Shown in pieces: positions 13,782 to 39,938 of a stretch of 64,000 nt of DNA. Position 1 is the first letter of the stretch. Each line of letters begins with the position of its first letter. Where the stretch lies: the NCBI RefSeq assembly GCF_963576615.1, contig NC_088711.1:64327248-64391247 (forward strand). The letters run 5' to 3'. The position numbers were made by a program, and so were the translations under genes. The stretch is from Watersipora subatra. Lineage: Eukaryota; Bryozoa; Gymnolaemata; Cheilostomatida; Watersiporidae. The notes below the pieces were generated by a model. That model saw only the letters and a program-made list of their open reading frames with translations. It was not told where the DNA came from and did not search any database.

Positions 13782-13787
13782 GATGAC

Positions 13788-14519
13788 AGTAGTATGTAGA
13801 GAGCAGATCTACACAAAAAAGTGACGGATCCAGCGGGGGGATAGAAAAAGGGGGTTGCGAATTAAATTGGCTAGGGGTGTAGATTGAATTGCGTGGAGTT
13901 GAATGAGATGTTGGGGTTTGGGGGGAAATTGTGGTGTAGAGTAGGGGGTTGAATTCGAGGGGGTATGGATCCGCTCCCGGCGTAATCGGCGGATTATCTG
14001 TGGATGAGTCATCCGATTAGTGGGGGATGAGTCATCTGATTAAACGTGGATTATCGCGGGATTAGTCGGGGGAATCGTTGCGGATTAGTCGGCCGAATCG
14101 TCGCGGATTATCGGTGGATTAGTGGGGGGGTGAATATCTGGGACATCGAGGGCTGGTTGGTTTTCCGGAGTGGATCTCGCGGATTATCGAGGAGAGCGAG
14201 AGATTACAGATAGGTCACAATAAAGATAATATAGTATAAATGAAACATTGAATATATATAAGAAAATGTTCATGTACAATCTTTAAAACGAAGTTTGTAT
14301 CGAGTTGTTCATCAATCACTCATCGTCATCGGAAATAGTTATGATAGCAGGATCCTTTTTGCATTGTGCCGAACTCTCGTAAAATCTGCTTGCTTCTTCA
14401 TGTCCCATGACTACTACATCGTAGTATTCGCGAGTATTGTGAGATGTTACTAGCCCCTTGTATATAATGTTACCCGGATAATTCTCTTTCAACGAAAGGG
14501 CATATCTCGAAGGCATCGT
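13788..14519 (+). repeat. Left terminal inverted repeat of the 9-kb element
   Basis: Matches the reverse complement of 21676-22791 with few differences. The outer ~430 bp is G-rich on this strand, with repeated GGATTA-type words (CGCGGATTATCG, GGATTAGTCGG). The inner part includes the end of the 304-residue ORF. Confidence 0.88.
14316..14519 (-). pseudogene. C-terminal fragment of the 304-residue protein carried in the left TIR
   Basis: Encodes a close copy of residues about 240-304 of the protein at 20962-21876, including MPSRYALSLKENY and the acidic end ISDDDE. Homology stops at 14519, exactly where the TIR ends, so no upstream part exists. It is a by-product of the TIR spanning the 3' end of the right-hand gene. 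Confidence 0.85.
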
Positions 14520-14652
14520 CTTCATAAATTCTGAAATTATCCATCACTGTTATGGATCCACTACTTTTTTAAAGATAATGTATAAATTGATGAAGTATTA
14601 TTAGTTAGTGTTGATTGTTACTGGAGCTTCTGAGGAGTCAACTTCCAATAGT

Positions 14653-15232
14653 ATGAATATCGACAATATTTCTGAAAGAACTCCCCAATTGAATATGAAA
14701 CAAAGACAGTGTAGAAGACCAACCAAGTCTAGATTGAACAGAACTACGTCATTACGAAGATCATCAAGAAAAAGTTCGGTAGTAAAGCGGTTATTCGAAT
14801 CCAAGGAAAATTATATGGAAGGAGATGAGAAAATTACGTCACCTATTGCAACAGTTTTTAAATCCGAGGAAATGCAAGAACCATGGAAATGGATTGATCT
14901 AAAAGTTTTGGATATTCCAGCTTCGTTAGAAGTAATACAAGCAAATAAGTCTGAAGAAAATGACAATTGTGAGATTGCGTTGCAATTCTTCGTTGAACGT
15001 AAGGGAGAGCATGGTGGCATTATGTTCGATCATCGAACCTCAAAAGTATAACATTCCCTCATCATTTCAATGGTTGACACCAGCTCTCATGATATTGGAT
15101 CGAAGTGAGATTTACATGAACTCTAAGTCTTCATCAGGATTAAAACTTTTCACGATTGACGGAGCGTGCAATCTGAAGGAATTCAGAGAGAAATTAAACA
15201 AAGATTATAAACTCTGTATATCAAGACAGTAA
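14653..15232 (+). pseudogene. Basic-N-terminus protein, frame broken near 15045 or spliced
   Basis: The frame from ATG 14653 has an Arg/Lys-rich start, then a segment with WKWIDLKVLDIPASLEVIQA, ending at TAA 15051. A second frame, one base over, continues with FQWLTPALMILDRSEIYMNS to TAA 15230-15232. A poly(A)-like AATAAA lies at about 15330. The two halves look like one ~190-residue protein with a frameshift. Alternatively GTAAGG at 14999 and a CAG near 15081 could form a short intron that joins them in frame. No family recognised. Confidence 0.45.
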
Positions 15233-15396
15233 TTAGTTAAGGAAATGTTATTATGATTAAATTTTATATAGTTTATTTGATGATATATCATAGGAATTTA
15301 AACTTACTATCAATGGATATATTATTGAATAAAAGTTTTGTATATAAAAATGCTAAAACATAATATAAAAAAAGACTATTGAATATTGAATATCAT

Positions 15397-16604
15397 TCAA
15401 CCCCAATTTTCTTCTTCTTTCATTGACGAAAGAGAATGAACTGTCTACAATCAAAACATACATTATTTTTAGTGAGATATAGTAAAAGTAAGACATACAG
15501 ACAGATTAGATCATTCATTCAAACTAAAAAACAAATATAATGTAATACTTACTGAAGAAGAAGATCCATCCTTTTTCTGAATGGAATCTTCCTGTTGAGA
15601 TACGGGAGCCTGCAATTGCAATGATTACAGTCAGGATGGTTTACTATAACCTTGTTGAGATAGTAGACTCTACATTCACAATGAACTCCAACTTAAATTG
15701 TAATTTTCAATTGCATTAGTCATCGAATCATAGAATGATATGCAAGATGTAATGCAGACAGAATAGGATATGCAATCAGCTAGAGTAGGACATACAGACA
15801 ATAAGAAAAACAAATATGTTACATCACATAGTCAGACTAGGACACACAGACAGAGGAGGATATTCAGTTAAAACAAAGAAATAAATATAATGTGCTACTT
15901 ACTGAAGATTCAAATTTATAAACCCTTCTCCGAAAAGGTCTATATTTAGTTCGCTGATACCCAGGATCCTACAATTGCAATGATTATAGTCAGAGTAGAA
16001 TACGCAGACAAATTAAAACACAGTCAGGTCTTACTTTGAATTTCAATTCCAACACCTTTTGTTTTAAAGTGAAGTTATACAAATATTAATTACTGTTTTC
16101 ACAGACTGTTACTCATTTTAACATTCCTACATACCAATTGGAGTGAATTTTGTTGAATGTATTTGATCTTTAGTTACATGTTTTATCATTATACAACGAT
16201 ATTAGACGAAATAAATATAATGTAATACTTACTTTTAAAGTCAATGTAACATCGAAGTTACAAAATAATTCTTCTCTTTGTCGCTGCATGACCAATGATT
16301 TCTACAATAATTTCCAAATTACTTTGTATAATTTAATTGTTTCATTTAAGCAAGCCCTATAATTCGAAATATATTTAATATGTAGTTTATATTCTCAAGT
16401 TTCCTTTAATCAAAAATATAATTTAGTAAAATATTATAATGTAATACTTACTTTCTTTTGAAGCTTGATCTTGTTTCGAAAAGCCTTCTGTTTTTCAGGA
16501 TCTACCTCTCTACCCCAAGGGCAGTAGCCCCATATCTCAACACACGTGTCGATGCATTTTGTCTGAGTTAGGAGTCTATCCACGTTTTTGTCTCGAGCAC
16601 ACAT
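15397..16604 (-). CDS. Five-exon gene for a ~130-residue protein
   Basis: Read on the minus strand, the exons are 16604-16452 (ATG, 51 codons), 16301-16233 (23), 15968-15903 (22), 15609-15553 (19) and 15444-15397 (15 plus TGA). Every donor is GTAAGT, four are followed by a very similar (A)TTACATT or CACATT sequence, and acceptors read TTGTAG, TGTAG or TGCAG. All introns (108-293 bp) are phase 0. The product starts MCARDKNVDRLLTQTKCIDT, includes EIWGYCPWGREVDPEK, turns basic in the middle and ends Ser/Glu-rich. I do not recognise the family. It lies wholly inside the 9-kb element and its exons are too short for simple ORF finding. Confidence 0.72.
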
Positions 16605-16735
16605 TGTAAACTATTATAAATAAAATGAGATGAAAAACTTATTCTTTCTCGTTGCTTATATAGTAAGTAGAAGCAATGTTATGGTTCATTAAATTTGTGT
16701 AATTTATGTTCACGAAATTGTAAAATCAGCTAAAC

Positions 16736-17292
16736 AGTTTTCGCGAAATTCACTTTCGCGAAATTCAATTTCGCGAAAGTTGACTATATAATATATATGT
16801 GTAATTTCGCGAAATCCAATTTCGCGAAATTCACTTTCGCGAAATTCAATTTCGCGAAAGTTGACTATATAATATATATAATGTCTATTTTCGCGAAATC
16901 CAATTTCGCGAAACTCACTTTCGCGAAATTCAAGTTCGTGAAAGTTGACTATGTAATATATATAATATGTAATTTCGTGAAATCCAATTTCGCGAAATTC
17001 ACTTTCGCGAAATTCGATTTCGCGAAAGTTGACTATATAATATATATAATGTGTAATTTCGCGAAATCCAATTTCACGAAATTCACTTTCGCGAAATTCA
17101 ATTTCGCAAAAGTTGACTATATAATATATATAATGTGTATTTTCGCGAAATCCAATTTTGCGAAATTCACTTTCGCGAACTTCAAGTTCGCGAAAGTTGA
17201 CTATATAATATATATACATGTATATAATGTGTAATTTCGCGAAATCCAATTTCGCGAAATTCACTTTCGCGAAATTCAATTTCGCGAAAATT
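16736..17292 (+). repeat. Array of TTTCGCGAAA palindromes, left
   Basis: About seven units of ~84 bp. Each holds four TTTCGCGAA(A) palindromes spaced by short CCAA, TCAC and TCAA linkers, then GTTGACTATATAATATATA. The reverse-oriented counterpart is at 20345-20815. It is a plausible multi-site for a DNA-binding initiator or origin. Confidence 0.9.
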
Positions 17293-17929
17293 GAGTGAGA
17301 CAAGTTGGATTAGAAGTAATTTATAGCTTTTGTGAAGATTCCACCTCCTTGAACTTGACTAGTATAAATACAGCCAAGCTTGATGGACTCATCAATGTTG
17401 ATAATTTTTTTCCTTGTAGTTAATATACATGAAACAGAAGTTGAAGTTATAAAATTATTTCATATATAGAAGATACAGTTTGGAACACTTCATCTAATTA
17501 AATCGATATTCTCAGATCTTCGAAATATTTCTATGACTGACTGGATTATATATCTCAAATTTTGGATATCTACATATAATCTTCTCTCAGAACTTTGGAT
17601 TATATCTCTCTGAACTTTGAATATAGAGAGGAAATCTATCCGAAAACTACCCATTCAGAAGGAGAGTGGAGCAAATCAGATGGGGTAAGTTGTTTTAGAA
17701 TTAATTGGTGGAAAGTTTTAATAATTGAATAATAGTAGAGAGAATAGTAAAATGAGTTTTTAACTTTTACATCTGGAATTCTGCCTCACAGCTGTTCAAG
17801 TTTTCACAAAGAATTGTATCATCCGTTTCAACTGATAAATATATCTGCTTAGTTTGTTCAACTTTATTTAAGAAGAGTTCAATCCTCAAAAGATATGTCA
17901 AAATACATTCATCCCCAAACGAATAAAAA
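17293..17929. repeat. Inner inverted segment, left
   Basis: The stretch starting GAGTGAGACAAGTTGGATTA and containing CACCTCCTTGAACTTGACTA recurs inverted at about 20190-20350. It holds no gene. Confidence 0.7.
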
Positions 17930-19556
17930 TTCAGTGAATACTTGTGTTCTGAGTACTTGTAGCTGAATGTATATAGTATTTATTCTGAGTACTTGTAGCT
18001 GAATGTATATATTATTTCTTCGCTACAAGTATTCAGAAGAAATAATATATACATTCAGCTACAAGTATTCGGAGTAAATAATATATACATTCAGCTACAA
18101 GTACTCAGAATAAATGATGTATGCATTCAGCTACAAGTACTCAGAATAAATAATATATACATTCAGCTACAAGTATTCAGAAGAAATAATATATACATTC
18201 AGCTACAAGTATTCGGAGTAAATAATATATACATTCAGCTACAAGTATTCAGAATAAATAATGTATGCATTCAGCTACAAGTATATTTATTCTGAATACT
18301 TGTAGCTGAATGTATATATTATTTCTTCGCTACAAGTATTCAGAAGAAATAATATATACATTCAGCTACAAGTATTCGGAGTAAATAATATATACATTCA
18401 GCTACAAGTACTCAGAATAAATGATGTATGCATTCAGCTACAAGTACTCAGAATAAATAATATATACATTCAGCTACAAGTATTCAGAAGAAATAATATA
18501 TACATTCAGCTACAAGTATTCGGAGTAAATAATATATACATTCAGCTACAAGTATTCAGAATAAATAATGTATGCATTCAGCTACAAGTATATTTATTCT
18601 GAATACTTGTAGCTGAATGTATATATTATTTATTCTGAGTACTTGTAGCTGAATGTATATACTATTTATTCTGAGTACTTGTAGCTGAATGTATATATTA
18701 TTTTTTCTGAATACTTGTAGCTGAATGCATACATTATTTATTCTGAATACTTGTAGCTGAATGTATATATTATGTATTCTGAATACTTGTAGCTGAATGT
18801 ATATATTATTTATTCTGAGTACTTGTAGCTGAATGTATATACTATTTATTCTGAGTACTTGTAGCTGAATGCATATATTATTTATTCTGAATACTTGTAG
18901 CTGAATGCATATATTATTTATTCTGAATACTTGTAGCTGAATGTATATACTATTTATTCTGAGTACTTGTAGCTGAATGTATGTATTATTTATTCTGAAT
19001 ACTTGTAGCTGAATGCATATATTATTTATTCTGAATACTTGTAGCTGAATGCATACATTATTTATTCTGAGGACTTGTAGCTGAATGCATACATTATTTA
19101 TTCTGAATACTTGTAGCTGAATGTATATATTATTTATTCTGAATACTTGTAGCTGAATGTATGTATTATTTATTCTGAATACTTGTAGCTGAATGTATAT
19201 ATTTTTTATTCTGAGTACTTGTAGCTGAATGCATACATTATTTATTCTGAGTACTTGTAGCTGAATGTATATACTATTTATTCTGAATAGTTGTAGCTGA
19301 ATGCATATATTATTTATTCTGAATACTTGTAGCTGAATGTATATATTATTTATTCTGAATACTTGTAGCTGAATGTATGTATTATTTATTCTGAATACTT
19401 GTAGCTGAATGCATATATTATTTATTCTGAGTACTTGTAGCTGAATGTATATACTATTTATTCTGAGTACTTGTAGCTGAATGTATATATTATTTATTCT
19501 GAATACTTGTAGCTGAATGCATACATTATTTATTCTGAATACTTGTAGATGAAATT
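17930..19556. repeat. 36-bp satellite array with an internal inversion
   Basis: About 45 units of TATTCTGAATACTTGTAGCT followed by GAATGTATATATTATT. Units from ~18012 to 18290 and ~18330 to 18590 are in the opposite orientation to the rest, and these two blocks are near-identical to each other (~300 bp), pointing to a segmental duplication within the array. Single-base variants (GAGTAC/GAATAC, GCATAC/GTATAT) are shared between units. Confidence 0.92.
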
Positions 19557-20344
19557 AAATTATGCTCTTGTGAAAGCTTGAACATCTTTGAGGAAGATTT
19601 CCAGCTGCCAAGAATTAAAAACCTCATTTTACTATTCTCTCTACATTTATTCATTCATTAAAAATTTTTTCCACCAATTATTGTAAATCAACTCACCTCA
19701 TCAGATTTGCTCCAGTCTCCTTCTGAATGGGAAGATGCCGGATACATTTTCTTGATGTATTCAAATTTCGGAAATATATAATCCAGTGAAACAGAGATAA
19801 TCCAAAGTTCTGAGAGAAGATTATACATAAATATCCAAATTGTAGAATTAATCTAAACTTTTGTGCGATATATAATCCAGTTAGTTCGGAGAAGTATAAT
19901 CCAAAGTTCTGAGAGAAGATTATACGTAGATATCCAAATTGTAGAATTAATCCAAACTTTTGTGAGATATATAATCCAGTTAGTTCGGAGAAATATAATC
20001 CAAAGTTCTGAGAGAAGATTATACGTAGATATCCAAATTGTAGAATTAATCTAAACTTTTGTGAGATATATAATCCAGTTAGTTCGGAGAAATATAATCC
20101 AAAGTTCTGAGAGAAGATTATACGTAGATATCCAAATTGTAGAATTAATCCAAACTTTTGTGAGATATATAATCCAGTTAGGTAAAGAAATAGTTCGAAG
20201 ATCTGAGAATTTCATGTATAATAACTCCAGGAAAAAAGTCTCGATAATGGTGAGCCCATCAAACTTAGCTGTATTTATACTAGTCAAGTTCAAGGAGGTG
20301 GAACCCGGACAAAAGTTATAAATCTCTTCTAATCCATCTTGTCT
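19557..20344. repeat. Inner inverted segment, right, with 99-bp tandem units
   Basis: Three 99-bp units (19862, 19961, 20060, ending ~20160) carry AGATATATAATCCAGTTAGT. The part from ~20190 mirrors 17293-17440 in inverted orientation. Short ORFs here are repeat translations. Confidence 0.8.
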
Positions 20345-20815
20345 CACTCAACTTTCGTGAAAATTGAATTTCGCGAAAGTGAATTTCGCGAAATTGGATT
20401 TCGCGAAATTACACATTATATATATATTATATAGTCAACCTTCGCGAAATTGAATTTCGCGAAAAGTGAATTTCGCGAAATTGGATTTCGCGAAATTACA
20501 CATTATACATATTATATAGTCAACTTTCGCGAAATTGAATTTCACGAAATTGGATTTCGCGAAATTACACATTATATATTATATAGTCAACTCTCGCGAA
20601 ATTGAATTTCGCGAAAGTGAATTTCGCGAAATTGGATTTCGCGAAATTATACATTATATATATTATATAGTCAACTTTCGCGAAATTGAATTTCGCGAAA
20701 AGTGAATTTCGCGAAAGTGAATTTCGCGAAATTGGATTTCGTGAAATTACACATTATATATATTATATAGTCAACTTTCGCGAAATTGAATTTCGCGATT
20801 TTCAATTTCGCGAAA
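20345..20815 (-). repeat. Array of TTTCGCGAAA palindromes, right
   Basis: Reverse-oriented counterpart of 16736-17292, about five to six units, ending 150 bp before the start of the 304-residue gene. Confidence 0.9.
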
Positions 20816-20885
20816 AGTCTTCTGATATTATGGATGATGCAGCTAAATTTATCAAAACTCATTAATCATTTGATGAGGAGAATTG

Positions 20886-20892
20886 TATATAA
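20886..20892 (+). promoter_or_regulatory. TATA-like element of the 304-residue gene
   Basis: TATATAA lies 76 bases before the ATG at 20962. It is a reasonable core promoter position but otherwise unproven. Confidence 0.4.
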
Positions 20893-20961
20893 CCAGCAGA
20901 ATTTTACTAAAACGATATCAGTTCTTCATTCAAACTCAGAGAATTAACACACTACACAACT

Positions 20962-21876
20962 ATGGAGGATAATACTCAATCTGGAGTGATAAAACCTGGA
21001 TCGAATAGTTCAGTGAAGATGACGAAAAAGAGAAATTCACCTGTAACTCTTTCTAACACGACTCCTCCAACGAAGAAGAAGAAATCCAACCAAATCGAAA
21101 CGAATTTGGAGCAAAGGGCAAAAGATGTGGCAGACAAGTTAAGAACATTAAGTAAGGATACTTTAATGGAGGCAAAATCACTGCAGAAAATGACAGACCT
21201 TTCAGTAGGATTGATTATGGAGGTGACAAAAACGGAAGAAGCTCATTCGATCCATAGAGCGTGCTGTATCATTCACTTCAACTATGTGGAAAATGGGATT
21301 ACTAAATCTACTGCTGTATTTGCTCCAAAACGATTTCTAGATGAATCGCTGTCTTATCCAAGTATTATGGTATATCTTGGATTAAAACCTAAGAGTAATG
21401 GACAGGGAAGTTACCATGACTTAAGACGAGTAACAGAAGGAACCTCAACTCCCTTGGACATGAAACGCACTCTAGCCAATCTGAGATCGAAGAGACTTGA
21501 AAAACTTATACAACTTTTCGAGACTCGTCATCTCAAGGAGTTCAAAGCACCATCTATTTTCTACTATCACAATGTTGGAACAAGTGAATACAAAGATGCT
21601 GAAGGCAAGGTGAATGTGGTACCAACTGTAGCATTTTCAACCAAAGTTGATGGAGAGGAAGTTCAAGGAACTTTAACGATGCCTTCGAGATATGCCCTTT
21701 CGTTGAAAGAAAATTATTCGGGTATCATTATATACAAGGGACTAGTAACATCTCACAATACTCGCAAATACTACGGTGTAGTAGTCATGGGACATGAAGA
21801 AGCAAGCAGATTTTACGAGAGTTCACAATGCAAAAAGGAATCTGCTATCATAGATATTTCCGATGACGATGAGTGA
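20962..21876 (+). CDS. 304-residue protein with duplicated ssDNA-binding-like domain
   Basis: The ATG at 20962 follows a TATA-like box. Residues 1-60 are basic and low complexity (KKKK at 38-41, probable nuclear signal). A helical stretch covers 60-90. Two similar units follow: one at about 100-158 (VFAPKRFLDESL, YLGLK, YHDLR) and one at about 220-276 (LTMPSRYALSLKENY, IYKGLV, YYGVVV). The same pattern is seen in the 98-residue protein of the neighbouring Polinton (25486-25782). The tail AIIDISDDDE fits a SUMO-interacting motif or the acidic tail of many ssDNA-binding proteins. Function is inferred only. It is the only intact long ORF of the 9-kb element and could be its replication or DNA-binding protein. 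Confidence 0.75.
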   Translation: MEDNTQSGVIKPGSNSSVKMTKKRNSPVTLSNTTPPTKKKKSNQIETNLEQRAKDVADKLRTLSKDTLMEAKSLQKMTDLSVGLIMEVTKTEEAHSIHRACCIIHFNYVENGITKSTAVFAPKRFLDESLSYPSIMVYLGLKPKSNGQGSYHDLRRVTEGTSTPLDMKRTLANLRSKRLEKLIQLFETRHLKEFKAPSIFYYHNVGTSEYKDAEGKVNVVPTVAFSTKVDGEEVQGTLTMPSRYALSLKENYSGIIIYKGLVTSHNTRKYYGVVVMGHEEASRFYESSQCKKESAIIDISDDDE

Positions 21877-22791
21877 ATGATAAACAACTCGATACAAACT
21901 TCGTTATAAAGATTGTACATGAACATTTTCTTATGTATATATTCAATGTTTCATTTATACTATATTATCTTTATTGTGTCTTATCTACTTGAACATTTTC
22001 ATATATTTCAAGTTAAACATAAACTATTTTATTTTTATTGAAACAAAATGATGATGGAAATAATGAATAATACATATAAATATATCTTTTAAAGTGAATA
22101 ATTTTGTAATAAAACTGATCTTTCATTCAACATATTAATTTCTCCAACAAATTTCAATCTTACATACAAAAAAATACAAAAATAAAACCGAAAATAAATT
22201 CCTTAAAATTCTTAACCATTCAAGAGCTTCAACATTACAAAATCATCAAATCTTCAAAAAATAACTTTGTACATAAACACTTTCTCATATATATTCAATG
22301 TTTCAAATATATAACAATCTCCGGAAAATCAACCCCTCGGTGTTCCAGATATTAACCCCCTCACTCATCCGGTAATCTCTCGCTCTCCTCAATAATCCGC
22401 GAGATCCACTGCGGAAAACCAACCAGCCCTCGATGTCCCAGATATTCACCCCCCCACTAATCCGCCGATAATCCGCGACGATTCGGCCGACTAATCCGCA
22501 ACGATTCCCCCGACTAATCCCGCGATAATCCACGGTTAATCGGATGACTCATCCCCCACTAATCGGATGACTCATCCACAGATAATCCGCCGATTACGCT
22601 GGGAGCGGATCCATACCCCCTCGAATTCAACCCCCTACTCTACACCACAATTTCCCCCCAAACCCCAACATCTCATTCAACTCCACGCAATTCAATCTAC
22701 ACCCCTAGCCAATTTAATTCGCAACCCCCTTTTTCTATCCCCCCGCTGGATCCGTCACTTTTTTGTGTAGATCTGCTCTCTACATACTACT
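21676..22791 (-). repeat. Right terminal inverted repeat of the 9-kb element
   Basis: Inverted match to 13788-14519. It includes the last ~65 codons of the 304-residue gene and ~340 extra AT-rich bases (about 21966-22308) that the left copy lacks. Confidence 0.88.
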
Positions 22792-22797
22792 GATGAC

Positions 22798-24789: not shown

Positions 24790-25322
24790 AGTAGTATGCT
24801 AATTAACTATTCTGGACCAGAATTTTCGCCCTGTCATTTTTTGTCTAAAGATGACTAAAAAACCTAGAATTTTAGAAAGTTTTTAAAATCCTTGGGATTT
24901 TAAAAAAATGGATATTAGAAATAAAATGGAGAGAGTTAGAAACAGGCACGGCTGTCACCTAGGTGACACGCGACTGCAGGACCTTTCGGTGCTGGTCACG
25001 CTTGCCATTTGCACCTCCTTTATTATAAGTAGTATGTAATATGGGGGTTTGCCCTGACAATTTTTATTAACCATGAAAACTCAAAATCAGATACACAAAC
25101 TCATGCTGATTTTTAAAAAATGGATATTAGAAATAAAATGGAGAGAGTTAGAAACAGGCACGGCTGTCACCTAGGTGACACGCGACTGCAGGACCTTTCG
25201 GTACTGGTCACGCTTGCTTTTTGCACCTATTTATTATACAAAATTCTTTAAACCTCTGATTGTCTATTTATTATACGCTTTTCTTTAAGCCTACATCAAT
25301 CGATTTGACTGAACAACGCTTA
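24790..25322 (+). repeat. Left TIR of the Polinton, internally duplicated
   Basis: Matches the reverse complement of 39939-40208. A ~145-bp unit (GGATATTAGAAATAAAATGG to the TTGCACC box) occurs twice, at about 24909-25016 and 25123-25230. An extra piece resembling the ATPase/capsid intergenic spacer is at 25220-25272. Confidence 0.88.
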
Positions 25323-25485
25323 GTGTAACAGAAATGTGTTTATTAGTTGTTAGATGCGCAAAGTGAATATCCTTCCTGTGCATAGCACTTGCAAGTATAT
25401 AGCGCTTGAATGATTTTGTGATATGACAGGCGTATGCAGTGCTCAGTTTAATGTAGGGTTAAAGAAAACTGTATAATAAATAACA

Positions 25486-25782
25486 ATGCCAATCACAATC
25501 AGAGGAAAAACATACGGAGCTTCGCATACTGCAGTGCATAAGATTTGTGCAATACCAAAGGAAATACCGCATGTGTGCCTAAGCAAAGAATCAAAGCCAA
25601 CGAGGTACGGATCCTACATAGCCACTGTATTCAATATGGATACTGAGGAAAAATACAAAGTGTATATGCCCGAGTATATAGCAAAAGAGGCTCTGCCAGA
25701 CAGGGAGTTTGTCTACTGCGGGCTTGTAAAGAAAACTGATGGCAGTGGACACTCATATCACTGCATAGAATGGCTAGAGTAA
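25486..25782 (+). CDS. 98-residue Polinton protein related to the 304-residue protein
   Basis: First gene of the Polinton, convergent with the RING gene. It starts after TATAATAAATAACA. The core pattern YIATVFNM, VYMPEYIAKEAL, VYCGLVKK and SYHCIEW matches both repeat units of the 304-residue protein of the 9-kb element. This looks like a small beta-rich domain, perhaps an OB-fold ssDNA-binding protein, but that is inference. No signal peptide or membrane segment. Confidence 0.7.
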   Translation: MPITIRGKTYGASHTAVHKICAIPKEIPHVCLSKESKPTRYGSYIATVFNMDTEEKYKVYMPEYIAKEALPDREFVYCGLVKKTDGSGHSYHCIEWLE

Positions 25783-25823
25783 ATTTGAATTTAAAACATT
25801 TTACTAAGAAAAATAGTGCGACT

Positions 25824-25861
25824 GACAATCATTGCATGTAAAAACTAATGCAATGATTGTC
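25824..25861. terminator. Hairpin at convergent gene ends 1
   Basis: Perfect 14-bp arms (GACAATCATTGCAT / ATGCAATGATTGTC) with a 10-base loop. It lies 41 bases after the 98-residue gene, and its right arm encodes the last residues of the RING gene. It is placed to end both transcripts. Confidence 0.6.
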
Positions 25862-26579
25862 TGCACATTGGACATGTGCTTGAGTTTTTAGCCCATTCCT
25901 CTATGCATTTTTTATGAAATATATGCTTGCAAGGTGTAGCCACCGCTTCTGCAATATCAGCTAAGCATATAGAGCATGGATCTTTTGCTTCTGCAGAGGT
26001 AAGTACTATAGGTTCTATTGCACGCTCATCTACGAAATTATGGTCTAACCAGAAACTCTGTGATCTTCCTCTTTCTCGTTCTTCTTCTTGAAACAGTGCT
26101 TGCGATATAACACTTCCTAGAGTTTCATTGCTTATATTTTGATAGTCTAGTATGTTTAGTCTCTGTGCTTGCTGTTCACAGTACACTCGCAAGGTTGGAT
26201 GAGATAATATCACAGCTCTTAGTGCATTTTTTCGATAATACTGCCAATAATCACGCCATGCTCTTATGTAAATATTTCTTATATTATCAATGCTCATTTG
26301 TTGGTAGTCTTGTAAATTAAATTCTTGCATATCACTCTCAAACTGTGCTCGCAATCTTCTTGCTTTTCTAGCTTTTTTCTTAGCTTTTTTTGTAGCATTT
26401 CTTAGCTCTTTTTTATCCATTTGCTGATAGCCTTCTATTCCAAACTTTCTCGCTTGACCTTCACAGTGAGCTCGCTGTATTGCTTTTCCTAGCTCATTGT
26501 TGCTCATACCCTGATAGCCTTCTATAGCCAATTCTCTTGCTTTCTGCTCTATTTGTTGTTGTCTATTTCTCCTTTCCAT
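25845..26579 (-). CDS. RING-H2 finger protein with four short helix-extension repeats
   Basis: 244 residues. The C-terminus (about 202-240) is a C3H2C3 RING: CSICL, CKHIFHKKC and CPMC give all eight zinc ligands, so an E3 ubiquitin ligase activity is expected. Before it are four repeats, (G/D)YQ-x-M/I-S-x-x-x-L/I, near residues 21, 49, 90 and 144, each after an Ala/Arg-rich helix. The same SAP-like pattern occurs in the polymerase N-terminus and the 99-residue protein of this element. It starts at TTAATAAATG, divergent from the integrase. Its likely target is a host or element protein; unknown. Confidence 0.85.
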   Translation of the reverse strand: MERRNRQQQIEQKARELAIEGYQGMSNNELGKAIQRAHCEGQARKFGIEGYQQMDKKELRNATKKAKKKARKARRLRAQFESDMQEFNLQDYQQMSIDNIRNIYIRAWRDYWQYYRKNALRAVILSHPTLRVYCEQQAQRLNILDYQNISNETLGSVISQALFQEEERERGRSQSFWLDHNFVDERAIEPIVLTSAEAKDPCSICLADIAEAVATPCKHIFHKKCIEEWAKNSSTCPMCRQSLH

Positions 26580-26603
26580 TTATTAACCCTTAATCCTTCA
26601 AAA

Positions 26604-26723
26604 TCTGTCGACATAAAATAAAAACCGTCGACATAAAATAAAAACCGTCAACCGATTTTGCAAAATCCGTCGACATAAAATAAAATCCGTCGACATAAAA
26701 TAAAATCCGTCGACATAAAATAA
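26604..26723. repeat. Tandem GTCGACATAAAATAAA repeats between divergent RING and integrase genes
   Basis: Five copies of a ~22-bp unit, CCGTCGACATAAAATAAAA, plus one variant (CCGTCAACCGATTTTGC). The last copy runs into the integrase ATG. It is probably a shared promoter region. Confidence 0.85.
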
Positions 26724-27665
26724 ATGGACAAGCTAAAGAAACTATATTATTCGCCGTCTGGCTATCAGCGTGGTAAGACAGCTGCTAGGAAGCTGCATGA
26801 AAAAATCCCCGAGTTGAAACGAAGTCAGATTCAAAACTGGCTTGACCGTCAACCCATCTACCAGATTTACAAGGCAAAGCCAAAGCGTATAAAATTTCCC
26901 CACTACAGCCAAGACAAACCAAACCATACTCACCAAATTGATCTGCTGAGCCTTCCCACTGACAAGGGGTACAAGTACGCGCTGACAGTGGTGGACATCG
27001 CTTCTAGGTACAAAGAGGCGGAGCCACTCAAAAAGAAAACAGCGGCTGATACGGTTGAGGCTATTAAATGTATATATAATAGGTCACCACTGGAATATCC
27101 AAAAGAAATAATGTCTGACAAGGGGCGTGAGTTTATGGGAACTTTCACAGAGCTGATGATTGAGAAAGGCATAAAAATATCTAGAAGCCTTAATAAGAAA
27201 AAGGTAGCGTTTGTAGAGCGTTTTAATAGAACGTTGTCAGAAAGATTGTTCGCTCACCAGTACGCTGAGGAAATTAAAACTGACAAGACCAACCGAGAGT
27301 GGGTAAAGAGGTTGCCGGGTGTAGTGGCTGCGATAAATGATGAAGAAACTAGTATGATAAATATGAAACCGATGGATGCTATAAAACTTGACAGTGTAAC
27401 ACAACCCGAGTATGACGAGGTCACTGAAGACTTGCCGATAGACTCATTGGTGCGGTATTTGTACAAACCCGGAGAAGAGCACAATGACACGCGGTACAGA
27501 GCCACTGATGCCATTTGGTCAGTAGATGTATACACCATAGATGAGATTCGTTCAGCTGAGAATCAACCATCCGTGTACACGCTCCAAGGCAATGATGACC
27601 GAACGTTTACTGCAGAGCAGCTGCAAGTTGTACCACCCGATACGGAGGGATTAAATATACAATAA
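26724..27665 (+). CDS. Polinton integrase (retroviral-type DDE)
   Basis: 313 residues. It inserts the element into the host genome with a 6-bp duplication. An N-terminal YYSPSGYQ...GKTAARKLH zinc-less helical part leads to an rve core with acidic residues D73 (HQIDLL), D132 (MSDKGREF) and E165 (AFVERFNRT). The D-E spacing is about 33 residues. The C-terminal SH3/chromo-like segment contains DSLVRYLYKPGEE and ends near VVPPD. The length is usual for Polinton integrases and the frame is intact. The next gene starts one base after the stop, so both may share a transcript. Confidence 0.93.
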   Translation: MDKLKKLYYSPSGYQRGKTAARKLHEKIPELKRSQIQNWLDRQPIYQIYKAKPKRIKFPHYSQDKPNHTHQIDLLSLPTDKGYKYALTVVDIASRYKEAEPLKKKTAADTVEAIKCIYNRSPLEYPKEIMSDKGREFMGTFTELMIEKGIKISRSLNKKKVAFVERFNRTLSERLFAHQYAEEIKTDKTNREWVKRLPGVVAAINDEETSMINMKPMDAIKLDSVTQPEYDEVTEDLPIDSLVRYLYKPGEEHNDTRYRATDAIWSVDVYTIDEIRSAENQPSVYTLQGNDDRTFTAEQLQVVPPDTEGLNIQ

Positions 27666-28244
27666 ATGACGGAAAAAATATATCTCAAACTGCCGACAGC
27701 GCCTCCGGATGGAGGTTTTGAGCGGTACAACAGAGTGCGCGATATTCGCAATGAGCTGCAGGTTCTGAGAGACAATCGGAATGGTTATTACAAAAAATAC
27801 AGCAAGGCGGTAAGTGGTCTACAGAATGCTCAAATAACTCTATCGTCACTGGCCTCCGTGGAATCGACAGCTGGTATCGCTACATCCCTTACTATAGTAG
27901 GGCTGCCCATTGGTGTGGTACTAACGGGTCTAGGTGTTGCGTCAGGTCTGATGGCTGCGGTACTGACACCCATAGCGAAGCACTGCGCCAAGAAAAAGGT
28001 CAAGCATGCCAAGAAGCACGCCATTCTGTGCACTGGCATATCTGTGCTAAACAAAAAGATCTCACGCGTGCTGGATGATAACTTTATTAATGACGCGGAG
28101 TTTGAGGACATTGTGAATGAATACAATGCCGTACGTCGCGAGCTCGAGTCTTTTGACGTTGACAAAATAAGAGCGGAGGCTAAAGAAGAGCTAACTCAGC
28201 AGCTGCTTCAGCGTATGCCTGGCACAAAAGAAGCTGCACAGTAA
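27666..28244 (+). CDS. 192-residue protein with a glycine-rich hydrophobic segment
   Basis: Directly follows the integrase (ACAATAAATG overlaps the boundary). Residues ~60-100 form a hydrophobic, Gly/Val-rich stretch (GLPIGVVLTGLGVASGLM) that could cross a membrane. It is flanked by helical, basic segments (KHCAKKKVKHAKKHA) and an acidic C-terminus. A protein of this type often follows integrase in Polintons. Its role is unknown; membrane or virion association is a guess. Confidence 0.7.
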   Translation: MTEKIYLKLPTAPPDGGFERYNRVRDIRNELQVLRDNRNGYYKKYSKAVSGLQNAQITLSSLASVESTAGIATSLTIVGLPIGVVLTGLGVASGLMAAVLTPIAKHCAKKKVKHAKKHAILCTGISVLNKKISRVLDDNFINDAEFEDIVNEYNAVRRELESFDVDKIRAEAKEELTQQLLQRMPGTKEAAQ

Positions 28245-28251
28245 ACCTCGC

Positions 28252-28281
28252 AAAATTTTATACTCGAGAGTATAAAATTTT
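28252..28281. terminator. Hairpin at convergent gene ends 2
   Basis: Perfect 13-bp arms (AAAATTTTATACT / AGTATAAAATTTT) around a CGAG loop. It starts 8 bases after one stop codon and reaches the stop of the facing gene. Confidence 0.65.
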
Positions 28282-28514
28282 TATTTAAATATGTTTGCGG
28301 GCAGTCCGGCGTCCTGTAGTTTCTTCAGAACAAAGCTAGCCGTTGCAATTTCTGCGGACAACATGCCAAGACTCTTGACCTTCATTTCGACGGGTCTGTC
28401 CTTGAAACCCAGTTCCTTAACCGCTTTTCTAGTGACTACTAACCCTGTAGCTAACAAAGCGCCTTGGTACAGCGCGTTACCAATATCCTTGAGAGTGTTG
28501 TTCATCTGCGCCAT
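28281..28514 (-). CDS. 77-residue small hydrophobic protein
   Basis: Starts at TATAATAAATG. It has a hydrophobic middle (GALLATGLVVTRKAVKELG) and a second Ala-rich stretch. No family recognised; likely a minor membrane or virion component given its place next to virion genes. Confidence 0.55.
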   Translation of the reverse strand: MAQMNNTLKDIGNALYQGALLATGLVVTRKAVKELGFKDRPVEMKVKSLGMLSAEIATASFVLKKLQDAGLPANIFK

Positions 28515-28522
28515 TTATTATA

Positions 28523-28834
28523 CTAGAATATTCTCGCTTTTACAGCGGGCGTTGGTGTAGGCTTTGGTGTGGGAGTTGGTGTAGGCTTTGGTGTGGGAGT
28601 TGGTGTAGACGTTAGTGCTAGTGGCTTTGTGTACCATTGCCAACCTATCAACAGTAGAGCTATACCGAGACCGACGGTTATCCACGCGTGTTCAGTTTCT
28701 TTGGGATGTTCAGTTTCTTCGGGATGTTCAGTTTGCTGGGTTATCGCGGAGAGCTCATCGTTAATGTCACTCAGAGGTTCTAGAGGAGTCTGCATCGGCC
28801 TCATCCTCTTGGGGTTCTTCTTGACCGTTGTCAT
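28523..28834 (-). CDS. 103-residue membrane protein with Thr-Pro repeat tail
   Basis: One transmembrane helix (WITVGLGIALLLIGWQW, residues ~51-67) is followed by repeats of TPTPTPKP. An N-terminal patch repeats EHP(E/K)ETEH. Starts at AAATAAATG. Its first ~20 codons overlap the end of the next gene in another frame. Confidence 0.6.
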   Translation of the reverse strand: MTTVKKNPKRMRPMQTPLEPLSDINDELSAITQQTEHPEETEHPKETEHAWITVGLGIALLLIGWQWYTKPLALTSTPTPTPKPTPTPTPKPTPTPAVKARIF

Positions 28835-29354
28835 TTATTTCTAGAGAATTTCCTACCCACTTGTAGTCGATGTGGTTGGCAGTAGTGAGCAGTACTGAGA
28901 AAGGGGCCAAATACATTCCGTAGTCATAGTAGAATGGCGGGAAATATTCTTTGAGGAATGCCTCGACAAAGACGTCTTTGTTTAGTTCAGCTTCCAGTTC
29001 CACCTCATCTACAGACACGACTCTAGACACAGATTTTGTCCAGAGTTTGGCGTACACCTTGGATACGTTACCGGCAACGTTGTCAATGATGCTCTGCTCG
29101 TGTTTGAGATATAACTTTTTAACTTCATTCTCTGACATTTTGGCAAGGTCTTCTTCCGTCTTGACGCGTGCCTTTACCAGCCTTTTTCGATAGTTGGCAT
29201 CATGTACTGATGTCTCTTCAGCCTGCTCCGGTAGTGAAATTGTTGGTTCCATTTTATTATACAACCGTTTCCATGTCAGGTAGCACTTGATGATTACAAA
29301 GCTTCCCAGAGAAAAGAAGAGTGAACCCGTCGCGTAGAATATTTGTTCAATCAT
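28767..29354 (-). CDS. Membrane-anchored protein, 195 residues (or 161 from an inner start)
   Basis: The start at 29354 overlaps the ATPase stop as ATGA and gives an N-terminal transmembrane segment (GSLFFSLGSFVIIKCYL). An inner ATG at 29252 is preceded by TATAATAAA, the element's usual start signal, and would make a soluble 161-residue form. Both may be used. The middle is charged and helical, followed by an aromatic block (EYFPPFYYDYGMYLAPFSV), and the C-terminus is acidic. Function unknown. Confidence 0.6.
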   Translation of the reverse strand: MIEQIFYATGSLFFSLGSFVIIKCYLTWKRLYNKMEPTISLPEQAEETSVHDANYRKRLVKARVKTEEDLAKMSENEVKKLYLKHEQSIIDNVAGNVSKVYAKLWTKSVSRVVSVDEVELEAELNKDVFVEAFLKEYFPPFYYDYGMYLAPFSVLLTTANHIDYKWVGNSLEINDNGQEEPQEDEADADSSRTSE

Positions 29355-29953
29355 TTGCTAAGGATCAAATACTGTGCAACGTCAGTGTTGATAAACAGCA
29401 TAAAAGTATTTACTAGTCCAGCCTTTATTTCAGCGTGGCGCTTTGACGGGATAAAGTCATTCTCGCTGGTAAGAGTCTCAAAAGACTTTTTACAAGTGTT
29501 TTTGGTTACCAAGACCCAATCAATATTTTCTCTAAAATCTTTGGGAGCCGAAAGGTAGCGCTGCGTTATGAACCAAGTGGTTAGGTTGGAATGGCGCCCG
29601 CTAAAAGCGGTTTTGCTGAGTGATGTGCGGTGTTTTTCGAGGTCCTTTTCCGCGCTGCAGTCGTCAATGATGATGAGCGACTTTTTACCCGACAGTTGGC
29701 CGCCTTTGGAGTGTCGCTTGATCAGGCTTTCTAGGTTGTCAACCAAGTTACCGTTGCACAAAACTGTGCACCTATTCAGCCAAGGACGATTGTAAGTCTT
29801 GTTGTCATGGAATGTGGGACAGATGATAAAAATGTGATCAAAAGCATGAAAGTAATACCTTTCAATTACATTTAGCGCGTGATAAGTCTTACCCGAGTTT
29901 GTTCGTCCGCAAATGATTGCGTTGTGTGGATGCTTTGGAAGTAAATTGTCCAT
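29351..29953 (-). CDS. Genome-packaging ATPase (FtsK/HerA-like, A32 type)
   Basis: 200 residues, as in other Polintons and virophages. Walker A is GRTNSGKT (16-23), Walker B is SLIIIDD (92-98), followed by a conserved TTWFITQRY sensor region. It would power loading of element DNA into capsids. It starts at a perfect TATAATAAATG. The frame is complete. Confidence 0.93.
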   Translation of the reverse strand: MDNLLPKHPHNAIICGRTNSGKTYHALNVIERYYFHAFDHIFIICPTFHDNKTYNRPWLNRCTVLCNGNLVDNLESLIKRHSKGGQLSGKKSLIIIDDCSAEKDLEKHRTSLSKTAFSGRHSNLTTWFITQRYLSAPKDFRENIDWVLVTKNTCKKSFETLTSENDFIPSKRHAEIKAGLVNTFMLFINTDVAQYLILSK

Positions 29954-29961
29954 TTATTATA
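29951..29961 (-). promoter_or_regulatory. Start-associated motif TATAATAAATG (example)
   Basis: TATAATAAATG with the ATG as start codon. The same or nearly the same motif begins the genes starting at 28514, 31139, 33192, 33513 and 39921. AATAAATG or a close variant begins those at 26579, 26724, 27666, 28834, 34070, 34081 and 35873. It may be a promoter fused to the start codon, or double as the AATAAA poly(A) signal of the gene before. Confidence 0.55.
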
Positions 29962-29990
29962 CAAAATTATTTAAACCTCTGATTGTCTAT

Positions 29991-31139
29991 TTATTGTTCG
30001 ATATTACTCAGTTGGTTATTTACAAAAGATACGCGTTTGTCAGTCACTAGAAATACAAACGCTTTGCCATCGTCTTGCGTTACATCTTTTGATAGCTTAA
30101 GCTTGACATAGTCTTTGATCTGTCGACCCGTCCCACTCGATCTTTCATCATTCAAAGTCCTCATATCTATAATTAAACAAAACTTGTCCGTGTAAAATTT
30201 TTCTTGGTTGATGAACGCTTCTCCATCACCAAAGTACTTGACCGCGTTCTCATACGAGTAGGGAGCTAAGTAATTTGATGTAAATTGCTGGTTTGTTGCG
30301 CCGTCTATATCTAGTCCGACATCTTTTAGCATCGGATTCCAAAATGTAATGTCAACAGAGTTATCCTTCTTGAAAAACACCAAGATCGCTCGAAGACTTT
30401 CATAGCTCACGTTTATGTTTATTTCAAACTCGGACTCTTCTTTTTGTATATCCTTGATCGTGTGAGATTTGTAATCGTTGATAATGTGACTATGATTAGA
30501 ATATTTTTGTTTAATACCTTCAGCCAAACTGGGTTCTAAAATGTAGTCATATTCTAAGCAGAGGTTGGTCAGCGTATACTTACCCGCGGCGAATTTGATA
30601 TGAAACTCTACATTGTTTTGGATTGCCTGCGGAGTAAAGGCGGCGTAAGTCAAAAATGATCCTAGGTGAAAAGAATATCTCTCACCGTGAATCTTTGCGA
30701 GAATGTCTTCAGCCGCGCCGTTTATTGAATGTCGTTTCTTTTTAGTCGCTGTAGACTGAATACCTCTATGCGTAAGATTGTAAGTATACTTTTGCTTCGA
30801 GTGCCAAAACTCTCTATATATCGCTAGATGAGCGTAGTTGGATATGTCGGATATAGTTTGACCATTTATGGTCATCTTAAACTTTTCTACGATCGCCGAT
30901 GTAAGGTGATCGGGAATGTCCGCTTCAGTTCCATCGCTGGCTAGTTTGAAATTGTAGGTTAGATTAAGCGATTTGGGGTAAAGAACTGCATTGGGCGTTA
31001 GCTGGGGCATTTTAATTACTAGCTCATCGCTAGGACTCGCTGTAGATGGATTGTGCACGACTCGCGCGCGCATCTTGTGCTCTTTTAGACCCTGCCTGTC
31101 TCTCGCGGACAGGTTATGGTTTAATTCTCCTGTATACAT
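29991..31139 (-). CDS. Major capsid protein (double jelly-roll type)
   Basis: 382 residues, at the usual place near the ATPase. The N-terminal block VIKMPQLTPNAVLYPKSLNL, then IVEKFKMTINGQTISDISNY and FWHSK, follow the Polinton/adintovirus hexon-like capsid pattern. In the second half FFKKDN, FWNP, the NQQFTSNYLAPYSYENA block and FCLIIDMRT fit too. It would form the icosahedral shell. It is shorter than some relatives but no break is seen. It starts at TATAATAAATG, 18 bases from the divergent next gene. Confidence 0.82.
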   Translation of the reverse strand: MYTGELNHNLSARDRQGLKEHKMRARVVHNPSTASPSDELVIKMPQLTPNAVLYPKSLNLTYNFKLASDGTEADIPDHLTSAIVEKFKMTINGQTISDISNYAHLAIYREFWHSKQKYTYNLTHRGIQSTATKKKRHSINGAAEDILAKIHGERYSFHLGSFLTYAAFTPQAIQNNVEFHIKFAAGKYTLTNLCLEYDYILEPSLAEGIKQKYSNHSHIINDYKSHTIKDIQKEESEFEININVSYESLRAILVFFKKDNSVDITFWNPMLKDVGLDIDGATNQQFTSNYLAPYSYENAVKYFGDGEAFINQEKFYTDKFCLIIDMRTLNDERSSGTGRQIKDYVKLKLSKDVTQDDGKAFVFLVTDKRVSFVNNQLSNIEQ

Positions 31140-31157
31140 TTATTATAATAAATAAAT

Positions 31158-32618
31158 ATGGATTTGGAAGGTAAAGACTTTAACCCCGATGTCGATGAAA
31201 TCCCGGGAGAACCATCATTTATCGAGCCCGCATCATCATTTACCGAGCCGCGCATTCATGAACAAAATGATGCGATATCCAAGGCGAATAATTGGCTCGC
31301 TCAAGCTGACTTGCCCAGCATTGATGAAATAATTTTAAAAAAGGGGAAAGGTAGGGTTGTAGATAAACGATTGTTTTCGGCTATTGTTGAAGTCGTAAAA
31401 CCCCGAGATGTTGATGGAATAAATGCGGCTATAAATATTTATGACAAATACTCGCGACGCGGAGGTACTTATGATGACTTTGTTAGTAAAAGGTTTCTTA
31501 CGCGAGAAGAAATTGATAGCTATCTCACCTCTTCTATAGATAGTGTACCTAATCCTCTCGTTAACACGCCTGGTGTAGACACGCACACGCAAAATACAAT
31601 CGGTGTAAAACTATCCAAGCTGGATATATACTCTGGTATAGATCATTCCAAGTTTGTTCTGATGGATGACGGTGGCCTCGCGGTAAAAACGAGCAAAGGC
31701 TCGCAAATGTTGACTTATGTGCGTAACCCTGAGCTTTTTGTCAAGAATCCAAAGATCCCAACCGTGGAATATCAAGGACTTTTTGGCTTGAACAAAGATG
31801 AATACACGAAAAGAGTAGAAAAAGCCAATGCTAGAACCATCGCTCCGGTGGATGAAGAAGTGGATGCGGATCAAGGCAATTTGACTGACTTCAAGTCATG
31901 GCTATCTAAACAGGGAGATACGGTGAAAGACCGAGCAAAAAATTTCATAGATCGGCTCAAAAGTAACAGAAAAACATCAGAGTTTAATTATCGCGAAGAA
32001 CTTGAAATGAGTGATATAGAGGGAAGGTTACCGGAACGAGAGTTAGTAGCTATTGATCAGAGATTTCAAACTATAGAAGGACAAATATCAGTGGCTGTGT
32101 CAAAAGCTGCGAACCTGACAGAGCAGATACAACAACTCGATGCTAAAGAGGACAAATCTCCTAATGAACTCGCAAAGTTGCAACAACTAAAAGAAGAGTT
32201 GGATGCGCAAAACGGTTTAATCAGTGATCTAAAAGGAGACCTTTCGGATAATACAGCAAAGATGCGAAAACAGCGCAACCTAATTTTAGGCATTGGTGGT
32301 GGGTTAGCCGCTGGAGGAATTTTAACGGCCATATTCGAAGCGGTAGCGAATGCATTGGGATCTGATGCGGTAAAAGATCTTATTCCTAAATCTACCGATC
32401 CGAAGGATATTATCGAAAGCGGCATTGGCAAAATTATCAAGAAAAATCTGGAAGACTTGGCCGCGTACTTTCATGACAGATATCTAAACACTTCCGGCGC
32501 AGTACAAGAATTTTGGCACATGATGGAAAATGCTGTAGATTATCTCGAAAGCAACTTGTGGATAATCATCGCCGCGGCATTAACTTTGTTAGCGTATGAA
32601 ATAAATAAGCACAGATAA
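31158..32618 (+). CDS. 486-residue protein with coiled coil and C-terminal membrane helices
   Basis: An acidic N-terminus, a central globular part (~60-210), a long charged coiled coil (~300-395, with AANLTEQIQQLDAKEDK) and a Gly/Ala-rich hydrophobic segment (LILGIGGGLAAGGILTAIF) follow in order. A final helix (LWIIIAAALTLLAY) ends in KHR. It is probably a virion or membrane-linked structural protein. No named family recognised. Confidence 0.7.
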   Translation: MDLEGKDFNPDVDEIPGEPSFIEPASSFTEPRIHEQNDAISKANNWLAQADLPSIDEIILKKGKGRVVDKRLFSAIVEVVKPRDVDGINAAINIYDKYSRRGGTYDDFVSKRFLTREEIDSYLTSSIDSVPNPLVNTPGVDTHTQNTIGVKLSKLDIYSGIDHSKFVLMDDGGLAVKTSKGSQMLTYVRNPELFVKNPKIPTVEYQGLFGLNKDEYTKRVEKANARTIAPVDEEVDADQGNLTDFKSWLSKQGDTVKDRAKNFIDRLKSNRKTSEFNYREELEMSDIEGRLPERELVAIDQRFQTIEGQISVAVSKAANLTEQIQQLDAKEDKSPNELAKLQQLKEELDAQNGLISDLKGDLSDNTAKMRKQRNLILGIGGGLAAGGILTAIFEAVANALGSDAVKDLIPKSTDPKDIIESGIGKIIKKNLEDLAAYFHDRYLNTSGAVQEFWHMMENAVDYLESNLWIIIAAALTLLAYEINKHR

Positions 32619-32643
32619 ATCTTTTATGACGCCATAAAAGATT
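32618..32643. terminator. Hairpin at convergent gene ends 3
   Basis: Perfect 11-bp arms (AATCTTTTATG / CATAAAAGATT) with an ACGC loop, overlapping the TAA of the 486-residue gene. Confidence 0.6.
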
Positions 32644-32768
32644 GCAAAGATTACAAAGATTGTTACAAAAATTACAAAGATTGTTACAAAAATTACAAAG
32701 ATTGTTACAAAGATTACAAAGATTGTTACAAAAATTACAAAGATTGCAAAGATTACAAAGATTGTTAC
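32640..32768. repeat. ATTACAAAGATTGTTACAAA tandem repeat
   Basis: Ten-base-like units (TTACAAAGAT, TTGTTACAAA) fill the gap between two convergent genes. The right arm of hairpin 3 has the same AAAGATT core, so the array may have grown from it. The 73-codon ORF here is a repeat artefact. Confidence 0.85.
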
Positions 32769-32769
32769 C

Positions 32770-33192
32770 TTATTGGATTAGCGCAAAACCTCCTACACTC
32801 GCAGCCGTGGCAGCGCCTACAAAAACTCGCTCATATTTTTTTTGTTCAGAGCTAGGGGTGTAATCTAAAGAAGGCGCTTTTAAATCGGGGTGAGGTAGTG
32901 TAGGCTTTTCACCGTAGAGCTTTTCATAAGTATCAAAGGCCGAATTTACCGAGTATATTTCATCGGTAGCCTCCTGCTTTCGAGCATTTTGCTCGTTTAG
33001 CCAATCTTGGTTTTTGGCTCGTTTGATGTTGTAATCCGCTTGTTCAGCGTTTAGCTTTTCTAACGCCGCATTATGTCTCTTGGCTTCTTCCTGAGCTCCA
33101 TTTTTATCAATCTTTGAAAAAAGATAATTTCCACCGGCGAACGCTAAAGAGTTTACGACGGCTCCCACTACCATAATCGCGATACTAGCCAT
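32770..33192 (-). CDS. Conserved small Polinton virion protein, 140 residues
   Basis: Begins MASIAIMVVGAVVNSLAFAG then GNYLF, a hydrophobic start seen in Polinton proteins from many animals. A helical segment rich in Ala, Glu, Asn and Trp (KRHNAALEKLNAEQADY, WLNEQNARKQEA) follows, and a second hydrophobic end (VFVGAATAASVGGFALI). It starts at TATAATAAATG and sits beside the minor capsid gene, as usual. Probably an internal virion or membrane-active protein. Confidence 0.7.
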   Translation of the reverse strand: MASIAIMVVGAVVNSLAFAGGNYLFSKIDKNGAQEEAKRHNAALEKLNAEQADYNIKRAKNQDWLNEQNARKQEATDEIYSVNSAFDTYEKLYGEKPTLPHPDLKAPSLDYTPSSEQKKYERVFVGAATAASVGGFALIQ

Positions 33193-33195
33193 TTA

Positions 33196-39921: not shown

Positions 39922-39938
39922 TTATTATATAAAGCCTT

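Follow-up and report, generated by a model that had tools for sequence, protein, structure and literature searches.

How does a mobile element spread when it has the ends of a Polinton (Maverick) and no detectable Polinton core gene? The question is raised by a locus of the bryozoan Watersipora subatra. The window, that is, the whole 64,000-nucleotide stretch of DNA that was analyzed (contig NC_088711.1, positions 64,327,248 to 64,391,247), contains an element of 9,004 bp at positions 13788-22791, and an integrase-bearing Polinton adjoins it at a distance of 2 kb. We read the 9,004-bp element as non-autonomous and foldback-shaped, with Polinton/Maverick cis signals on which resident Polintons would act in trans, their RVE-type integrase inserting it and their polymerase probably copying it, and we give this reading a probability of about 0.58. 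A satellite that uses Polinton replication and integration would be the most economical reading of the sequence.

The element is bounded on each flank by an exact 6-bp duplication, GATGAC. Its outermost letters are AGTAGTATGTAG on the left and CTACATACTACT on the right, with tips that read AGTAGTATG...CATACTACT. The earlier note on this DNA had claimed the 6-bp duplication and AG...CT ends, and both were read exactly at 13788 and 22791. A 6-bp duplication is a criterion for Polintons/Mavericks in PMC8097293 and PMC10045372, and vertebrate Mavericks have (AG)3//(CT)3 and (AGT)2//(ACT)2 ends together with 6-bp duplications (PMC8097293, citing Kapitonov and Jurka 2006). Measured by this vertebrate standard, the element has both the 6-bp duplication and AGTAGT...ACTACT on 420-bp inverted repeats. 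Two contrary outcomes had been fixed beforehand, a duplication of another length and a full-length relative with its own integrase or transposase of a different superfamily; neither was seen, and in this one insertion the duplication is 6 bp long and no transposase was found. The arms continue inward from the terminal repeats through a second paired segment (Table 1), and when the element is aligned with its reverse-complemented sequence, approximately 16721-17616 pairs with 19982-20830. Nearly the entire element is therefore an imperfect foldback, which is interrupted by two gene-holding blocks, one on the left (14520-16720) and one on the right (20831-21675). The duplication, ends and arms are features of this single insertion, and the whole element had no blastn match in the rest of the window.

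The sequence AGTAGTATG occurs six times in the window versus 0.70 times expected, a count reached in 0 of 100 shuffles. The sites are the two tips of the element, the two ends of the Polinton (24790 and 40208), position 25028 inside the Polinton, and position 44467, the last being without explanation. A 9-bp terminus shared with the Polinton had been reported before; it is the same in the element and the Polinton, but six of the nine bases, (AGT)2, are the general Maverick motif and are not specific to this neighbor. The rest of the terminal repeat had been called unrelated to that of the Polinton, which agrees with blastn searches using the first 233 bp of the element: only the first 9 bp match the Polinton end, and the first 11 bp plus chance-level pieces match the 25028 site. 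The sequences that start at 24790, the Polinton left end, and at 25028 are the same over their first 9 bp, dissimilar up to positions 80 and 106 except for a weak 18-bp match, and then similar over 132 bp at 95.5% identity. We read 25028 as a putative second, alternative left end of the Polinton. The flanks of the whole Polinton, AGATAT and AAATAT, are alike at five of six positions. In 24790-25238, the Polinton seems to have two left ends in tandem, as though ends had been exchanged or one end had been added to another. If 25028 is read in this way, the alternative left ends of one Polinton keep only the terminal 9 bp, so that an element end that matches in just these 9 bp and differs in the rest of its repeat could plausibly be functional and would have the expected look.

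Polinton core genes were sought in the element by Pfam scans of all 10 ATG-started open reading frames (ORFs) of at least 60 amino acids, the stop-to-stop ORFs of at least 120 amino acids and P0005, a protein model of the spliced element gene L described below, with shorter ORFs lying outside the scan. In agreement with the earlier note, these scans of gene R, gene L, ORF M and the other ORFs detected no polymerase, integrase, ATPase or capsid family, and no transposase or integrase domain. The same scan detects the rve integrase (26724-27665; E = 2.9e-12) and the A32-like packaging ATPase (29351-29953; E = 1.6e-11) of the neighboring Polinton, and no RVE-type integrase and no packaging ATPase, protease or jelly-roll capsid was found by Pfam in the element ORFs. 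It does not detect the Polinton ORF at 29991-31139, which matches no Pfam family and is presumed to be the capsid gene, so that the capsid negative is weaker. Likewise, no protein-primed family B polymerase family was found in the scanned element ORFs, and the PolB-type ORF of the neighbor (35842-38541), which we assign from a YTDTDS motif and its position, is also left unnamed as such by Pfam, which names only an endonuclease VII piece in it. This ORF had no PDB match and one match to a phage type B polymerase (E = 3) among the 8 best of 246 matching records. No non-repeat ORF of the element is longer than R, and with its 9,004 bp the element is below the length criterion of 15 to 20 kb for Polintons (PMC4028283). 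Matches to Pentapeptide_4, Pentapeptide and DUF2960 above the cutoff in the ORF at 16713-17309 were rejected as a translated palindrome array.

The element has genes of its own and is more than a deletion remnant, as had been proposed: R is intact, and L is a five-exon gene that the first reading of the sequence had missed. R consists of a lysine-rich N-terminal part, two possible OB-like domains and an acidic IIDISDDDE tail. A protein search with the 304-residue product, suggested in the earlier note, was run and found a full-length relative, P0001, with 88% identity and the partial W. subatra models P0002 and P0003. The alignment of R with P0001 has one gap of a single residue and no frame break. 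In a rough neutral simulation to the same protein divergence, an ORF as clean as this one (no stop, not more than one indel) survived in 0 of 400 runs at one indel per 8 substitutions and in 5 of 400 at one per 15, where the indel ratios are assumed and the comparison is biased, as the protein database takes in open ORFs only. Most differences between the R C terminus and its arm copy alter the protein, so that one of the two, the arm copy or the R of this element, seems free to drift, which speaks against strong recent constraint on R here. The TRIM56-like W. subatra model P0003, on the contig of 66,307,180 bases, opens with approximately the first 64 residues of R, as though an element copy had given a host gene its first exon. 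From the lysine-rich part, one or two OB-like domains and the acidic, SUMO-interacting-like tail, R would most likely be a nuclear single-stranded DNA-binding or replication accessory protein.

Residues 61 to 165 of R weakly resemble the 98-amino-acid ORF of the neighboring Polinton (BLASTP E of 0.002), with p values of about 0.003 each against this ORF and its relative P0004. The C-terminal part of R gave nothing against the two (p = 0.95 and 0.88), and the two parts of R compared with each other gave only p = 0.04. In an unbiased scan of 264 pairs, R with the 98-amino-acid ORF ranks second (p = 0.009); the top pair, ORF M with the Polinton RING protein (p = 0.006), was taken as chance. Homology of R with the 98-amino-acid ORF is a lead only. 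ORF M is possibly a broken gene, and its database searches gave only matches below the cutoff. That it contains the domain of R and the 98-amino-acid ORF was rejected, with no comparison of M or its overlapping ORF giving p <0.27.

L is a spliced gene on the minus strand with four introns. Exons 1 to 4 were predicted before P0005 was found, by joining GTAAGT donors to AG acceptors that agree in phase; this W. subatra model is identical to L over all 115 residues and ends in TVHSLSSMKEEENWG, encoded at 15444-15397. Another model, P0006, is 91% identical to L and is located, together with the shorter isoform P0008, on other contigs. A second type of L is represented by the N terminus of P0002 and by P0007, with 37% identity over 43 residues to the first type (measured for P0002), and these models continue into the C-terminal sequence of R. 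For the copy studied here, joining of the last L exon to the arm copy of the R C terminus was rejected, since their reading phases do not fit together and P0005 has a final exon of its own. All four L introns open with nearly the same 17 bp, which introns 1, 2 and 4 share without a difference and intron 3 matches at 15 of 17 positions. The last 25 bp of introns 2 and 3 are similar as well (92%), and these likenesses suggest that exon-intron units of L were duplicated.

The searches with R and L retrieved seven distinct proteins, six of which are W. subatra models. The R relatives and L models are on at least three chromosome-size contigs (67,125,504, 66,307,180 and 65,553,477 bases) of a genome of 783.70 Mb in 11 chromosomal pseudomolecules (PMC12902671). 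P0005 corresponds to five sequences on two contigs and P0002 to three on three, some of them possibly the window itself. The genes, at least, form a family, because R relatives and L models are on several W. subatra chromosome-size contigs. No R relative was confirmed in viral contigs, phages or prokaryote genomes, no relative of L or of the Polinton integrase was confirmed in viral contigs, and the 22-bp element tip had no exact match there, in collections that may leave out the genome of the window itself. Neither R nor L matched a known family above the cutoff.

Upstream of each gene is an array of exact TTTCGCGAAA palindromes. All 37 occurrences of TTTCGCGAAA in the window are within the two arrays, with none in the other 55 kb. 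L and R point outward from these mirrored arrays, L leftward and R rightward, and for both genes a TATATAA is found between array and start codon. The arrays contain TTTCGCG, which in our view resembles an E2F half-site. One guess is that such E2F-like sites might couple L and R expression to S phase; equally a guess, the arrays might be binding sites for R.

The mechanism that we infer, from integration and replication in trans to the functions of R and L and the control of their transcription, would run as follows. Transcription of L and R would proceed outward, away from the two mirrored arrays. The RVE-type integrase would come in trans from a Polinton that is active in the nucleus where the element resides; this enzyme would act on the AGTAGTATG tips and join them to the target at staggered sites 6 bp apart, producing the 6-bp duplication. 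The protein-primed polymerase of the Polinton would probably copy the element in trans, initiating on the AGT repeats. A tandem AGT-AGT tip is the kind of end used in slide-back initiation. The long, near-identical terminal repeats would fit the copying of whole linear molecules. On whether a helper would recognize the ends, the observation is that 9 to 11 terminal bp are common to Polinton ends in the window; on whether the element might keep gene content of its own across copies, it is that relatives of L and R are on several contigs. A wider proposal, that the element represents a Polinton satellite lineage in an animal, with the terminal 9 to 11 bp as its passport, control arrays and both spliced and unspliced genes of its own, the arrays being symmetric, and Polinton-dependent integration and protein-primed replication, is more tentative and in our estimate falls somewhat short of even odds.

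The strongest competitor, unlikely but deserving serious weight, is that the element is an ordinary non-autonomous Polinton. It would then have arisen by deletion or foldback formation from an autonomous Polinton family that has this 420-bp repeat and to which L and R belong as accessory genes. Several observations fit such a derivative. The 6-bp duplication and the ends are those of Polintons, Polinton accessory genes vary and include optional proteins beside the core (PMC5718144), and residues 61 to 165 of R weakly resemble a small ORF of the neighboring Polinton. Against it, L contains four introns, and PMC8097293 reports that the intact Mavericks of vertebrates are intronless; none of the seven proteins retrieved with R and L is named as a Polinton protein, as judged by names and not by genomic surroundings; and no core-gene family was found in the element. 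Tlr was once proposed as a non-autonomous Polinton derivative, which is disputed by PMC4028283.

An autonomous transposon of another or an unknown superfamily, with R or L as its transposase or initiator and with ends that arose by convergence or ancient kinship, is improbable. The absence of any family match above the cutoff for R and L would formally allow a new enzyme, and IS3EU and GingerRoot also make 6-bp duplications (PMC10045372). Those groups encode a transposase and end in TA..TA, or, for GingerRoot, mostly in TA..TA and occasionally in TG..CA (PMC10045372), whereas this element has AG..CT ends with 9 to 11 terminal bases that match Polinton ends and no transposase or integrase domain was found in it. 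Less probable again is a Mutator- or P-type foldback of the FB, Galileo or Tetris kind with captured pieces of host genes. The long, internally repetitive inverted arms do have the foldback form, and gene-bearing foldbacks exist (FB-NOF). The duplications of Tetris are 8 to 10 bp, which is partly why it was assigned to Mutator, and it has no conserved ORFs (PMC4079207), as opposed to 6 bp and Maverick ends here. A palindromic segmental duplication of the host with Polinton-like ends by chance is hardly credible: although one insertion is the whole sample, an exact 6-bp duplication abuts 420-bp inverted repeats with the 9-bp Polinton core at both tips, and relatives of L and R are on several chromosome-size contigs.

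Some further structures were observed in the Polinton and elsewhere in the window. Near its left end, the Polinton encodes a RING-finger protein (25845-26579; zf-RING_2, E = 4.5e-13), in which Rho_N matches are weak and below the cutoff. The PolB-type ORF (899 amino acids) and an ORF of 459 amino acids (38542-39921) are consecutive in one frame (35842-39921), with the stop directly followed by an ATG; either they are separate genes or a single gene has been interrupted. A second large foldback is present at 49619-55480 (49619-51582 with 52665-54636 at 94.8% and 51570-52140 with 54913-55480 at 93.2%). A perfect 901-nucleotide inverted repeat (61952-62852 and 63100-64000, 247 nucleotides apart) is cut by the window end (61952-64000). 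Both of its arms carry similar ORFs, presumably of a GIY-YIG retroelement-like kind. With arms 100% identical, the repeat could have formed very recently or could be a palindrome made by the assembly.

Table 1. Coordinates of the element, its genes and repeats, and features of the neighboring Polinton
Feature	Position	Strand	Basis or remark
Target site duplication GATGAC, left copy	13782..13787	.	Sequence read
Target site duplication GATGAC, right copy	22792..22797	.	Sequence read
Left terminal inverted repeat, 420 bp, starts AGTAGTATGTA	13788..14207	+	98.6% identity to 22372-22791
Right terminal inverted repeat, 420 bp	22372..22791	-	98.6% identity to 13788-14207
AGTAGTATG terminal core, left tip, common to Polinton ends	13788..13796	+	
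AGTAGTATG terminal core, right tip	22783..22791	-	
Second arm segment, left	14208..14519	.	Inverted copy of 21676-21986, 93.6% identity
Second arm segment, right (R 3' end and downstream)	21676..21986	.	Pairs with 14208-14519
69-amino-acid ORF copying the R C terminus, mostly within the left second arm segment	14316..14525	-	ORF list
ORF M, 132 amino acids, overlapped by a 90-amino-acid ORF in another frame (14960-15232)	14653..15051	+	ORF list
Gene L, exon 5, TVHSLSSMKEEENWG then stop	15397..15444	-	Assigned after P0005 was known
Gene L, exon 4	15553..15609	-	Predicted; P0005
Gene L, exon 3	15903..15968	-	Predicted; P0005
Gene L, exon 2, missing from P0008 (named isoform X2)	16233..16301	-	Predicted; P0005
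Gene L, exon 1, start codon at 16604	16452..16604	-	Predicted; identical to P0005
Left array, 20 exact TTTCGCGAAA palindromes, upstream of L	16739..17289	.	
Central 36-bp tandem units, both orientations (foldback center)	17947..19553	.	
Tandem repeat in the right inner arm, 3.9 copies of a 99-bp unit	19797..20181	.	
Right array, 17 exact TTTCGCGAAA palindromes, upstream of R	20369..20815	.	
Gene R, 304 amino acids, single intact ORF	20962..21876	+	ORF list, protein search
Polinton, candidate helper type	24790..40208	.	Integrase, ATPase, AGTAGTATG ends
Apparent second left end of the Polinton: AGTAGTATG is followed by about 70 bp that mostly differ from the first end and by 132 bp with 95.5% identity to it	25028..25238	+	
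Polinton 98-amino-acid ORF, predicted beta-beta-beta-alpha-beta-beta (OB-like) topology	25486..25782	+	

Among known systems, the element resembles Polintons/Mavericks in its 6-bp duplication, (AGT)2//(ACT)2 tips and inverted terminal repeats, and differs from them in its length of 9 kb, foldback arms and spliced gene and in that no family of PolB, capsid, packaging ATPase or RVE integrase was found in it. The foldbacks FB, Galileo and Tetris are alike in their arms and differ in their Mutator or P kinship. A kind of element that shares only terminal bases with its helper is already known: Ds1 of the maize Ac/Ds system is non-autonomous and has 11-bp terminal repeats and some subterminal repeats in common with its helper, with little other homology (PMC3260210). 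Ds1, however, is about 400 bp long and belongs to a different superfamily, whereas this element is 9 kb long and has its own genes. Virophages, satellite viruses and transpovirons have few genes of their own and exploit a larger DNA virus or element whose replication signals they share. The same way of working is proposed here by analogy with virophages and transpovirons, except that an integrated Polinton would act as the helper, that neither a capsid nor a polymerase was found and that the dependence is putative. The earlier note knew of no described family with this content, and no Polinton-dependent element with spliced genes of its own appeared in the literature titles and abstract openings surveyed, with Repbase, Dfam and most subscription papers outside the survey. 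Exact phrases for a non-autonomous Polinton/Maverick, a Polinton-derived miniature inverted-repeat transposable element or a Polinton satellite retrieved nothing there, as did bryozoan combined with Polinton.

If the proposed reading is true, animal Polintons have parasites of their own, an animal counterpart, one level down, of the parasitism of virophages and transpovirons. The activity of Polinton integrase and polymerase in animals is largely inferred. The minimal Polinton end, approximately 9 bp, would become readable from comparison and would provide a direct substrate for both enzymes, and non-autonomous transposons and satellite viruses would be linked in one system.

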